Positions 12,643-32,920 of a stretch of 64,000 nucleotides of DNA are shown here, in pieces (the stretch's first letter is position 1; each line of letters opens with the position of its first letter). The notes under the pieces are model-generated. The model was not told the DNA's origin. It worked only from the letters and a program-made list of their open reading frames with translations, and searched no databases. Both the position numbers and the translations under genes were made by a program. Source of the DNA: Oceanospirillum beijerinckii DSM 7166 (lineage in GTDB: Bacteria > Pseudomonadota > Gammaproteobacteria > Pseudomonadales > Halomonadaceae). The stretch covers positions 1 to 64,000 of the forward strand of contig NZ_AULT01000036.1 in assembly GCF_000422425.1 (NCBI RefSeq). Direction: 5' to 3'.

Positions 12643-18060
<5,418 letters not shown>

Positions 18061-29627: not shown

Positions 29628-31166
29628 ATGATGGAAAAACCAATAGCACAGGTATTAAGCCTATTAAGCGCGGCGGTCATTACCGCTGGCTGTAGTAACC
29701 AGCAGATAAAACCTGCCTCACAAACGGACCTTGACCGGCTACAGCAGAAAGAGCAAGTCTTGGCAGAACAGGAAAAGGCCTTAGCGATAAAAGGGTCACA
29801 ACCCAAAGAAAAAGAGCACGCACTGGAAATCCAAAAAACGACACAACCACCACCATTACCGGCAACCCTGACCAGTGCAAAACCTGGGCAATGCTTTGCT
29901 CGCGTCTGGGTGGAAACCACCTACCAACAGTATTCAAAATCAATTCTGACTAAAGAAAGCAGCGAATACATCGAAACAGTACCGGCAAAGTTTCAGCTCA
30001 ACACTGAACAGGTCATGATCAAATCGGCCAGTAACAAAATCATCCCAATTCCTGCTCAGTATAAAACAGTACAGGAACGAGTGCTGATTACCCCTGCCAG
30101 CCTTGAATGGCGGGTCAGCCTCGACCCTAAAAGTCCACCCGCGGAGAAATATCTGCTGGATAAGGCTCAGGCCCACGGTATTCAATTGGATAACGCCAAA
30201 CCTGGCATGTGCTTTCATGAGCACTATCACCCAGCCTGGTATAATGAGCAGAAAGAAGAGATTCTTGTTAAAGAGGCATCGACGCTATTCACCAGTACTG
30301 AGCCCAAGTTTAGTTGGGTCGAAAAAAAGGTGTTAGTCAAAGCGGCCAGCACCCGACTGGAAGAGATACCGGCTCGGTATGAAACGGTCGAGGTGCAGCT
30401 ACTGGATATTCCGGCTCATGTGACCTGGGAGCCCTGTGCTGGCACCTTATCGGCTCATAGTGCCGAAGGACTGTGCAAAAAGGATGTGCCCGCCCAATAT
30501 AAAACCGTGAGCAAGCAGATACTCAAAACACCTGCAACGGTTAAAACCATAGCGATTCCCGCTGAATATGAGACAGTGCGCGTCAGAACCCTGGTGACAC
30601 CCGCGAGTCAACATCAGCAACCTGTTGCTGCTCAATATCAGGAGGTTACTACCCGAACCAAGATGGAAGATACCTCCTTTACCTGGCATGAGATAAATAA
30701 CCAACAATTACCTAAAAAAACCCGTACAGGCAATCAGATCTGTCTCGTTGAGACCCCAGCTGTTTATCAGACACTAGATAAGCAAGTACTTGTCGCTCCC
30801 GCCCGAACCGAGACGGTCAAACAACCAGCCGAATATCAGACGATCCAGGTGCAAAAATTGCTGGAACCGGCAAAACAGGTCAGACACGTCATCCCTGCCG
30901 AGTATAATGAGATCACCTTAAGCAAAATCGACCAGCCTGGTTACATGGAATGGCGAGCCATTTTATGCGAAAGCAATATGGATACATCAACAATCAGAAG
31001 CATACAAACACGCTTACTCAATCAAGGTTATTCACCTGGCCCCATTGACGGTATTGTCGGAGAAAAGACCATGAAAGCGGTGCATCAGTTCCAGGCCGAT
31101 CATAACCTGCCTTCAGATCCTTATATCAACATCGAAACGGTCAAGGCTCTGGGCTTATCTCAATAA
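29628..31166 (+). CDS. Lipoprotein with twelve 23-residue repeats and C-terminal peptidoglycan-binding domain
   Basis: The 512-residue protein has a lipobox ITAGC (Cys22). A short coiled-coil-like Gln/Glu/Lys stretch follows. Residues 95-163, 201-269, 287-355 and 376-444 are four blocks, each of exactly three 23-residue repeats with the pattern PAxYxTVxxxxLxxPA. The third repeat of every block carries a Trp at position 21 (LEWRV, VTWEP, FTWHE, MEWRA). A Cys lies in the linker before each block (PGQC, PGMC, EGLC, NQIC). The last 65 or so residues match a peptidoglycan-binding type 1 domain (IQTRLLNQGYSPGPIDGIVG). It probably links the outer membrane to the cell wall. Exact function unknown. 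Confidence 0.85.
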   Translation: MMEKPIAQVLSLLSAAVITAGCSNQQIKPASQTDLDRLQQKEQVLAEQEKALAIKGSQPKEKEHALEIQKTTQPPPLPATLTSAKPGQCFARVWVETTYQQYSKSILTKESSEYIETVPAKFQLNTEQVMIKSASNKIIPIPAQYKTVQERVLITPASLEWRVSLDPKSPPAEKYLLDKAQAHGIQLDNAKPGMCFHEHYHPAWYNEQKEEILVKEASTLFTSTEPKFSWVEKKVLVKAASTRLEEIPARYETVEVQLLDIPAHVTWEPCAGTLSAHSAEGLCKKDVPAQYKTVSKQILKTPATVKTIAIPAEYETVRVRTLVTPASQHQQPVAAQYQEVTTRTKMEDTSFTWHEINNQQLPKKTRTGNQICLVETPAVYQTLDKQVLVAPARTETVKQPAEYQTIQVQKLLEPAKQVRHVIPAEYNEITLSKIDQPGYMEWRAILCESNMDTSTIRSIQTRLLNQGYSPGPIDGIVGEKTMKAVHQFQADHNLPSDPYINIETVKALGLSQ

Positions 31167-31231: not shown

Positions 31232-32920
31232 CTAGAACATAACTTTCACACCAATCTGCCCACTATAGGCATCTAAGTCACCGCTAAATGTCGATCTAGG
31301 CTCCAGTTCCAGCTGTCGATGACTCACACTACCGGATAGCTGTACATTGGTGTTCAAATCCAACTGAACCCCCAGAGTTAATTGACGAAGCCTGTCACTA
31401 TATTCCATTGTTCCGCTATCACTCTCATCATTAAAACGGGGAGAAAGTCTCATAAGCAAAAGATCCATAGAAAGATTTACAGGACTAACGGGCCTGAAAT
31501 CCAAACGCCCCCGGCCACCATAGCCGCGTACCTTTTCACCTAGGTCACCGGATTCATCATAGTGAACGTGACTTGCGATTAAACCGGTATAGAGTTTAAC
31601 CGGTACTGATTGAGCGCTGATGCGAGCCCCTAGCTCCAGGCTGTTGCTACGATAGGCATTATCGAGCTGCAACTTAGGGGTGAAGGGCATGAACTCCCAA
31701 TCAACTTCCGCCCGGGTGAATTGCCCCGAAAATGCGATTTGTTCATTGAGTTTAATATCTGCCCCCGCCTGTAGCTGGCTAATTTGGTATTCTTCAAGCG
31801 CCAGAATGGCCTCTGTGCCAGTGTCGGCCTTATCACTGTTTGCAATCACATAGTCCAGCTGTACCCAGGCCTTGGCCTCAGGAGATACACCATAATATCC
31901 ACCGACACTCAGTCGGTTACCCGCTAAGCGCCCCAGGTTGGCATCACCCTCATTATCCGGTGAAACATACTGCCTAAGTGCGGATAGCTCAGCAAACAGA
32001 TAAGAGTAACCTGAAAGATGATAATTCATCCGGACATCCGCATTCAGATGCTTAAAATGACTTTTGAAGCTCGAACCTGAGCACGCCAGGCCTTGATAAC
32101 GCGCATTATGATAGAACAGAGGAATCATACGGATACCCTCCTGATCGTCCCAGGCAACAGGAATCAGCTGATCGCTCCGGCCACCGGTGATATAGAACTG
32201 GCCAGAAAAAGTGAAACGATTGGAATTAATACCAATCAGGCTTTCCTCAAACGAGGGCTGTTTAAAAATATCGGGCAGATCTTCTAAGGGTTTGGGAACA
32301 TCCTCAGCGCTGGAAGCGTAGGCCACCTCGTTGGGCTTGAGAACCTGGGTACCCGATTCATTTTCCAGTGCACCGCTGCCCTCTTGAATCAACAGATAAC
32401 TGCCCTGAGGACTATTTTCCATCTCTTCGATCTTATCCGCGACATGAAACACCACTAAATCCGTACCACGAATACCGATGGTTGCAACGGGCGTCCTGAT
32501 CGCAAACTGTTTTTTATTTCTTTGTCCAATCAACCCTGTTATAGAGCGTAAACCGCCTTTAAATACTTTGGTCTCTACCTGGTTGTTCTTAGACTGGCCG
32601 TTAAAAGAAAATCTGGCCAAACGCACAGAACTATCAGGCCGGACAGCAAAATAACTTTTATCCTGCATTTGAATCTGTACACTGGCAGCCTTTTCTGTCA
32701 CGACAAGATCACGCAGAAATACGTCATGGCCTTTTTGTGCTTTTCTTGAAATGCCATCTTCACTGATAACAACGGCATCGCCATGTACAAATAAAATTTT
32801 GCCAATAGGGGTTTGCCCGTAACCGGACAAGGGGAGCATGTAAAGCATGACCAGTATCCCGGCACGCCGGTAAAAGCAAGCGCGAGAAAAACATTTCACC
32901 ATGGACGTCAGTCGTTTCAT
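31232..32920 (-). CDS. FecR-domain protein fused to a predicted outer-membrane barrel
   Basis: The 562-residue protein has a signal peptide (to about SGYGQ, residue 36) and a FecR domain (about 38-160) with KGGLRSITGLIGQ and [14 protein letters not shown]. The second half (about 230-562) has many short alternating beta segments and ends in VKVMF, with a C-terminal Phe typical of outer-membrane barrels. A periplasmic FecR domain attached to a barrel is unusual. The FecR part shares the same signature as the giant protein at 12643-18060. ATG at 32920 has GGAAGAGAG directly upstream. It converges with the repeat lipoprotein gene. Function unknown. Confidence 0.8.
   Translation of the reverse strand: MKRLTSMVKCFSRACFYRRAGILVMLYMLPLSGYGQTPIGKILFVHGDAVVISEDGISRKAQKGHDVFLRDLVVTEKAASVQIQMQDKSYFAVRPDSSVRLARFSFNGQSKNNQVETKVFKGGLRSITGLIGQRNKKQFAIRTPVATIGIRGTDLVVFHVADKIEEMENSPQGSYLLIQEGSGALENESGTQVLKPNEVAYASSAEDVPKPLEDLPDIFKQPSFEESLIGINSNRFTFSGQFYITGGRSDQLIPVAWDDQEGIRMIPLFYHNARYQGLACSGSSFKSHFKHLNADVRMNYHLSGYSYLFAELSALRQYVSPDNEGDANLGRLAGNRLSVGGYYGVSPEAKAWVQLDYVIANSDKADTGTEAILALEEYQISQLQAGADIKLNEQIAFSGQFTRAEVDWEFMPFTPKLQLDNAYRSNSLELGARISAQSVPVKLYTGLIASHVHYDESGDLGEKVRGYGGRGRLDFRPVSPVNLSMDLLLMRLSPRFNDESDSGTMEYSDRLRQLTLGVQLDLNTNVQLSGSVSHRQLELEPRSTFSGDLDAYSGQIGVKVMF

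Follow-up and report, generated by a model that had tools for sequence, protein, structure and literature searches.

A probable β-hairpin stalk of mirror-paired 23-residue repeats in a peptidoglycan-binding lipoprotein of Oceanospirillum beijerinckii

Introduction

Envelope proteins and lipoproteins that end in a C-terminal peptidoglycan-binding domain include the Pal/OmpA-type anchors (PF00691); to our knowledge, neither Pal nor OmpA possesses a long paired-repeat region. A second wall-binding domain, PG_binding_1, occurs in SleB, lytic transglycosylases and HxsA. Among repeat proteins, the β-solenoids and β-helices are built of short, regular β units, for which 23 residues is a plausible coil length, and the G5/E repeats of SasG and Aap, of another repeat length, form a thin, elongated β structure in a cell-envelope protein. 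The antiparallel coiled-coil arms of SMC and Rad50 are formed by a chain that folds back, giving two arms of equal length.

The protein described here is encoded in a 64,000-nucleotide stretch of the O. beijerinckii DSM 7166 genome (contig NZ_AULT01000036.1, positions 1 to 64,000; the window). It ends, like the Pal/OmpA-type anchors, in a peptidoglycan-binding domain, and its relatives L081, L082 and L085 have a C-terminal OmpA domain, whereas the window protein has PG_binding_1 and no match to PF00691 to E 10. Its C-terminal 55-60 residues resemble the PG_binding_1 proteins, but unlike SleB, the lytic transglycosylases and HxsA it has no catalytic domain recognised by Pfam. Its short, regular, β-like repeats of about 23 residues recall a β-solenoid; however, the coupled partners in the family are repeats k and n+1-k of two arms, not k and k+1. 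Equal arms that fold back are also reminiscent of SMC and Rad50, although the family would form a β ladder of 23-residue repeats rather than α-helical heptads, and no homology is claimed. Unlike SasG and Aap, the window protein has no G5 match to E 10. The reading favoured here, and considered probable, is that of a giant β-hairpin stalk on a peptidoglycan-binding outer-membrane lipoprotein rather than a solenoid of 12 coils.

Layout of the gene and its product

The gene (29628..31166, forward strand, as are all parts of it listed below) is an open reading frame translated into 512 amino acids, and its product is the single match in its own genome. The signal peptide (29628..29693) ends in the lipobox that a sequence-only reading had proposed: TAGC at residues 19-22, with a presumptive lipid-bearing Cys22, followed by Ser23 at +2. 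There is no Asp at +2, and absence of Asp after the lipobox Cys is the rule for sorting to the outer membrane, where the protein is presumably located. The N-terminal linker (residues 23-94; 29694..29909) is at first rich in Glu, Lys and Gln, contains C89 and W94, and is modelled with low confidence as a helix at residues 30-51. At the other end, the expected wall-binding domain is a PG_binding_1 domain (PF01471) at residues 455-508 (30990..31151), scoring 47.1 bits against a cut-off of 23 (E 2.7e-12).

Between the two lie twelve 23-residue repeats in four triplets, an arrangement read from the sequence at the outset and confirmed throughout by repeat positions and self-similarity. The repeats start at residues 95/118/141 (triplet T1), 201/224/247 (T2), 287/310/333 (T3) and 376/399/422 (T4), and the first of them (VETTY...) lacks the Pro-Ala start. 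Self-similarity is best at an offset of 23 (mean BLOSUM62 score 0.23, against a maximum of -0.20 in 500 shuffles over offsets 5-119), and the 23-residue register supports the proposal of strictly regular β-like units. T1 (repeats 1-3; 29910..30116) and T2 (repeats 4-6; 30228..30434) are assigned to arm 1, and T3 (repeats 7-9; 30486..30692) and T4 (repeats 10-12; 30753..30959) to arm 2; T1 is placed by repeat position and T2, T3 and T4 by arm-type profile, and the nested ladder described below gives T4 as the predicted partner of T1 and T3 as that of T2.

The linkers between the triplets are 17-37 residues long. The T1-T2 linker (30117..30227) contains C195 and most of a CFHEHYH motif, the putative hairpin tip (30435..30485) contains C270 and C283, and the T3-T4 linker (30693..30752) contains C372; C447 lies in the putative hairpin base (30960..30989). 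The Trp that the sequence-only reading placed at position 21 in every third repeat is there in four of four cases (W161, W267, W353 and W442, in repeats 3, 6, 9 and 12). A Cys likewise precedes every triplet (C89, C195, C283 and C372); with the lipobox C22 and two that had not been listed, C270 and C447 just after T2 and T4, the protein has seven. The CFHEHYH motif (residues 195-201; window 30210-30230) closes the T1-T2 linker; of 29 four-triplet proteins 13 share its HEH, and it is a possible metal site.

A widespread repeat family

No Pfam or NCBIfam model matches the repeats of the window protein at cut-off in searches to E 10. Pfam matches of the whole protein to E 10 are peptidoglycan-binding models only, with PG_binding_1 passing its cut-off. 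None of the NCBIfam models does so for the whole protein to E 10, the HxsA model (TIGR03979) staying below its own threshold (41.3 bits against 121.65; residues 452-511 only). All eight matches among PDB sequences to E 10 fall within residues 453-508 and none in the repeats, and with a profile of 18 relatives all 23 PDB matches start at position 275 or later of 360, in the peptidoglycan-binding end. PG_binding_1 was found by Pfam in 18 of 18 aligned relatives; other Pfam models in these are weak and occur in one or two members each, except for two related peptidoglycan-binding models, among the 25 of 33 models listed. The better PHROGs matches are endolysins, again over this end. A match to a characterised repeat lipoprotein, which would have contradicted the sequence-only reading, was absent over the repeats from Pfam, NCBIfam and PDB, and no family of this plan was found in the family libraries or among the papers listed by literature searches; these do not cover subscription papers and preprints, so that absence is not proven. 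Six 8-residue family motifs do not occur in openly searchable paper text. Members are, we assume, usually annotated merely as peptidoglycan-binding proteins.

A profile search with the 23-residue repeat, proposed with the original reading and iterated here over fetched loci, returned 115 distinct proteins with 982 distinct repeats. Of 941 spacings between successive repeats, 727 measure exactly 23, followed in frequency by 43 (78 cases). Two close homologues of the window protein, both from metagenome assemblies, are L001 (41% identity over residues 10-511), assigned to Labilibaculum (Bacteroidota), an assignment that may be wrong, and L002 (43% identity), whose frame is broken at the start. 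A query with the full protein has matches in 20 of 151 genomes of its own taxonomic family, but its own genome alone matches in the repeats, the matches of the other 19 starting at residue 448 or later. The repeat region (367 aa) matches 24 of 293 genomes of the order, its own included. With a two-arm relative that has the peptidoglycan-binding domain as query, 76 of 369 genomes of the class and 136 of 398 of the phylum match, many of them in that domain alone. Among 198 genomes of the phylum to which that of L001 (G796) belongs, 9 match. On these statistics the repeats belong to a widespread and apparently undescribed family with a real, conserved architecture.

Anchoring varies within it. 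By pattern, a lipobox-like motif is present in 18 of 30 four-triplet proteins and 35 of 52 with two arms of four repeats (4+4), some of which lack a fetched start; none was seen by eye in L079-L085, and the pattern finds none in other members too. As far as such motifs indicate, the lipid anchor is not general across the family. Ten relatives of odd architecture were scanned for domains: OmpA occurs in four (inside arm 2 in L079), PG_binding_1 in three and no domain in four, L079 having both, and in L081, L082 and L085 OmpA stands in place of the C-terminal PG_binding_1. Wall binding, as predicted from these domains, is common in the family, not universal.

Viral, phage and plasmid collections contain no relative of the repeat region, with the window protein and relatives as queries; the plasmid collection has a single match to the peptidoglycan-binding domain (residues 460-508). 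Pattern searches matched 28 and 8 stretches in these collections, none encoding a relative; one DNA pattern matched nothing there, and a second matched 12 contigs, none with the repeat.

Block-final tryptophans, cysteines and equal arms

The marks that delimit triplets in the window protein are conserved. Across the family Trp21 is present in 262 of 299 block-final repeats, versus 2 of 725 others. Of 29 four-triplet proteins, the window protein included, all 29 have Cys residues exactly at -6, -6, -4 and -4 before the four blocks and a further Cys at position 26 of their final repeat, and in them the block-final position 21 is Trp in 114 of 116 cases and Tyr in the other two.

Two of the 115 proteins were contained in others and were dropped, leaving 113. 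After missed units had been filled in, their architectures are 4+4 (52 proteins), 3+3+3+3 (30, including the window protein), 3+3 (8), 2+2 (5), 6+6 (3) and others (15). The two arms are equal in 106 of the 113, unequal in two and undecidable in five, that is, equal in 106 of 108 decidable cases, eight of the 106 having been decided by counting by eye, by summing blocks or from a longer fetched stretch. The window protein, as 3+3|3+3, has arms of six and six repeats. Of the 15 others, L037, L044, L046, L156 and L078/L193 were resolved as 4+4 and L085 as 11+11; counts for L037, L044, L046, L156 and L085 were completed by eye, and L078 was counted on the longer fetch L193, with an in-frame stop present. 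L079 (334-2793) and L080 (769-3222) are 12+12 with an interrupted arm 2, the twelve repeats of arm 1 facing 1+6+5 = 12 on either side of inserted OmpA domains flanked by Cys; the insert of L079 is OmpA by Pfam, in addition to a PG_binding_1 domain at its end, and that of L080 is so called by its resemblance to L079. The truncated or broken L002, L127, L149, L153 and L154 were left out of the tally.

The two unequal cases are L190 and L191. L190 (10+6) is an apparently intact gene, the only one with unequal arms among the 113, and its arm-1 repeats are near-identical; its locus (G1202:C2:241500-245500) holds two adjacent family genes, one 4+4 and one 10+6, neither with room for a peptidoglycan-binding domain. 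L191 (3+1|3+3) has an in-frame stop. In its genome, G614, a four-triplet gene with triplet 2 cut to one repeat and an in-frame stop is present twice, as L191 and L192; the pair looks decayed, L192 being known solely from match rows equal to those of L191.

The architectures range from 2 to 12 repeats per arm. Among the proteins are eleven short open frames of 207-246 aa (L097, L098, L100-L103, L105, L107, L111, L113 and L114), all 2+2 or 3+3, from the same phylum and with no more than 53 residues following the last repeat; the three of them that were scanned have no Pfam domain. Four-triplet proteins form one clade of 30 with a support of 0.986 in a tree of 93 built on the inner module and the peptidoglycan-binding domain. 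The equal-arm proteins are related, and their 106 cases are therefore not independent events; nevertheless, seven equal architectures against one unequal intact gene would be hard to obtain if the arms grew independently. The linker between the arms shows no steady growth with arm length, its median being 14, 13, 20, 51, 22 and 22 residues for n = 2, 3, 4, 6, 11 and 12.

The two arms are also of distinct types. An arm-type profile trained on the 4+4 proteins, with position 21 omitted, assigned 200 of 208 arm-1 and 195 of 208 arm-2 repeats correctly in leave-one-out trials; one difference lies at position 10, where 148 of 208 arm-1 repeats have Glu and 124 of 208 arm-2 repeats have Lys or Arg. 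When applied to four-triplet proteins, the profile called 177 of 180 repeats of T1 and T2 arm 1 and 176 of 180 of T3 and T4 arm 2; the window protein gave five of six and six of six, and with the eight 3+3 proteins the profile was less successful (17 of 24 and 15 of 24). T1 and T2 accordingly make up a six-repeat arm 1 and T3 and T4 a six-repeat arm 2, each split mid-way, and the existence of distinct types means that equal counts do not stem from recent copying of a whole arm.

An antiparallel ladder between the arms

Covariation was analysed after sequences at least 85% identical to a kept one had been dropped, which left 46 of 52 4+4, 26 of 30 four-triplet and 11 of 16 other proteins. In the non-redundant set of 46 4+4 proteins, the arm-2 repeat with which each arm-1 repeat correlates most strongly is its mirror image (1-8, 2-7, 3-6 and 4-5); the highest correlation, 0.56, is found for 4-5, two repeats that also adjoin in the sequence. 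Of 24 matchings this antiparallel one came out on top whether the redundancy cut-off left 46, 32 or 22 4+4 proteins; in bootstraps it was best in 219 of 300 and above the parallel matching in 300 of 300. At the level of whole repeats the four-triplet proteins gave 0.178 for antiparallel, 0.166 for parallel and 0.077 for other pairs, the first two not being separated.

Mutual information between arm-1 and arm-2 columns, computed for 83 proteins with permutation within repeat position, localised the signal. Above Z 5 there are 30 column pairs for repeats k:n+1-k, 9 for k:k, 1 for k:n+2-k and 13 for k:n-k. The strongest pairs of the first set fall on position sums i+j = 16-20 (7-9, 11-5, 17-3, 4-15, 15-4, 14-4, 6-14, 6-12 and 9-9), and those of the k:n-k set mostly on i+j = 40-44 (19-21, 22-20, 19-23 and 22-22, with 12-19 and 15-19 as others). 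The two sets share one line, x+y ~ 23(n-1)+18, with a register of i+j = 16/18/20 in strand A and 40/42 in strand B. Read in structural terms, the line is a continuous antiparallel two-stranded ladder with a slip of register at each Pro-Ala kink. Mean-field couplings were computed as well, from 311 four-repeat rows with an effective number of 246; of the 40 strongest between the arms, 36 lie on this line, where 3.8 are expected.

The ladder was found on sequences that were also used for most of these statistics, and more independent checks come from separate 4+4 and four-triplet sets, from the held-out window protein with its parallel control and from L085. Taken alone, 4+4 proteins have their top antidiagonals at 20, 19, 18, 16 and 17, and four-triplet proteins at 18, 19, 16, 20 and 17; 11 proteins of the 2+2, 3+3 and 6+6 types show no clear ladder peak. 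With pair tables from 97 other proteins, none reaching 50% identity to the window protein, antiparallel pairing of the held-out window protein ranked first of 720 (z 3.1), and a parallel-trained control ranked parallel pairing 346 of 720. Among the 29 remaining four-triplet proteins antiparallel pairing ranked first in 16 and always within the top 5%, against none and four for the parallel control, and it was first of 24 in 39 of 52 4+4 proteins, against four for the control. L085 (11+11) also favours it (p about 0.001), and the nearly uniform repeats of L079 and L080 (12+12) give p values of 0.06 and 0.09, below significance. In the 10+6 protein L190 the best register sets arm-1 repeats 5-10 against arm 2, with the tip kept in register. 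That the antiparallel ladder itself is real is held with high confidence, and the covariation suggests that the arms are equal because repeat k pairs with n+1-k across a fold-back.

These couplings bear on the row of twelve equal coils, a β-solenoid or fibre, that was first proposed, in which coil k would stack on k+1 and the lipid and wall ends would lie far apart. A coil length of 23 and weak couplings at a separation of 23 within an arm are in keeping with it, but tandem duplication alone yields some signal at that separation. The strong long-range couplings run between the arms, antiparallel, and k:k+1 couplings of neighbouring repeats are much weaker; single-arm covariation consists mainly of local turn couplings, the strong signal having appeared on pairing the arms. 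Nor does a solenoid predict equal arms, two arm types or a Trp confined to block-final repeats, and we regard it as improbable. What covariation supports in its place is a single fold-back, with T1 on T4 and T2 on T3. The separation of a lipid at one end from a wall domain at the other is replaced as well, since in a hairpin both the N- and the C-terminal ends come to lie at the same base.

How the four triplets nest was decided by the same signal. When T1 is paired with T4 and T2 with T3, four-triplet proteins score 1.79 on the ladder and 0.32 off it; pairing T1 with T3 and T2 with T4 gives no ladder (0.27 on, 0.34 off), and neither does pairing T1 with T2 and T3 with T4 (0.23 on, 0.28 off). 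The last result tells against beads on a string, that is, T1:T2 and T3:T4, or single triplets, as separate compact domains. Trp and Cys do delimit the triplets, and the linkers of 17-37 residues in the window protein would allow such domains, yet T1 and T2 share an arm type and the nested pairing stands far above background; this arrangement appears very unlikely, and nesting is statistically the better supported.

Structure of the ladder

Structure prediction, which the sequence-only reading had put forward as a check, was run and proved unusable. AlphaFold2 gave no usable model for the full-length protein (3 rows; mean pLDDT 46.6) or for triplet T4 (11 rows from the window protein, L001 and L002; pLDDT 43.2). 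In the full-length model strands of about 12 and 7 residues alternate, a weak agreement at most. A lack of confident structure is what an unstructured spacer between lipid and wall domain would give, but the strict 23-residue register, the conserved Trp and Cys residues and the covariation ladder all speak against it, and we give this reading almost no weight.

In the hairpin favoured here, arm 1 (T1 and T2) would run out and arm 2 (T3 and T4) back, with repeat k beside n+1-k in one antiparallel ladder. The ladder would kink at paired Pro-Ala sites, positions 2-3 of one arm facing 16-17 of the other, and Trp21 would cap the end of each triplet. A variant compatible with this main reading is that the ribbon is rolled into a compact, rigid double-stranded β-helix, a tube resembling a jelly roll. 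Couplings 17-3 and 3-17, by which the kinks of both strands coincide at Pro-Ala, would favour coiling, as would weak couplings 12-19 and 10-21 inside arm-2 repeats, which suggest that one segment folds over the next; the couplings expected from one turn to the next (A1.k+1 x A2.m, A1.k x A2.m-1), however, do not rise above background. Coiling is a serious candidate, at somewhat short of even odds, and the rolled body would be short, an estimated 1 nm or so per repeat, in place of a long, thin stalk.

Cysteines, base and tip

Expressed in ladder coordinates, C89 is at -5 and C447 at 26, C270 at 24 and C283 at -3; each pair adds up to 21, which places it within a few residues of facing, the first at the base and the second at the tip. 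The junction of the two nested modules holds C195 and C372. The earlier suggestion that cysteines staple the repeats is probably right, and the likely disulfides are C89-C447 at the base, C270-C283 at the tip and perhaps C195-C372 in the middle. Of 75 two-arm proteins, 69 possess the first Cys together with the last, and 16 lack the middle one; the six with no last Cys (five 2+2 and one 3+3) have an additional Cys that precedes the first by a few residues, and two of them that were scanned, L098 and L101, have no Pfam domain.

The same ladder would arise if the arms paired between two molecules, as a swapped dimer or polymer, intra- and intermolecular pairing being indistinguishable by covariation. 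The arm linkers, however, are short and do not lengthen in step with the arms, and the first and last Cys residues occur jointly; both observations fit a hairpin of one chain more simply, and swapped arms are considered rather unlikely. At the tip, many relatives have the motif WKKGxGPIxKIDxATGEIMC, which suggests a binding site there; the tip of the window protein is divergent and has an extra Cys.

Proposed role and wider meaning

In the hairpin reading the lipid linker and the wall domain would both exit at the stapled base, where the outer membrane would be tied to the wall, and the number of repeats would determine how far out the stalk holds its tip. This function as tether and stalk is put forward tentatively, as somewhat less secure than an even bet. 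For the family as a whole, we lean slightly towards a new class of tandem repeats in which mirror-paired units form an adjustable hairpin of 2-12 repeats per arm, with matched changes of arm length and nestable modules (3+3|3+3), found in at least two phyla, often with a peptidoglycan-anchored base and serving as an envelope stalk or ruler. If this is true, an architectural rule would predict the fold from sequence alone and would account for the odd equality of repeat counts, and structural biology would gain a repeat class of mirror-pairing units. The question would then arise how the lengths of both arms change together in evolution. A wall-anchored stalk whose length differs between species would be testable by altering the repeat number in both arms or in one.

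Genomic neighbourhood

Across 20 loci and the window, no cluster of neighbouring genes recurs in more than 4 of the 21 neighbourhoods, the clustering being crude in that the family gene of some loci fell into a second cluster. Composition and promoter scans revealed nothing special. What is presumably a Sel1-like repeat protein lies near the family gene in 4 of the 21 neighbourhoods (L182, L184, L185 and L188). In the window, the gene adjoining that of the repeat lipoprotein (31232-32920, reverse strand) encodes a product that we take to have a FecR-like N-terminus and what resembles an outer-membrane barrel. Farther off, a gene at 12643-18060 on the forward strand encodes a protein of 1805 residues with a long run of Pro-Glu dipeptides and what we assume to be a FecR-like start.
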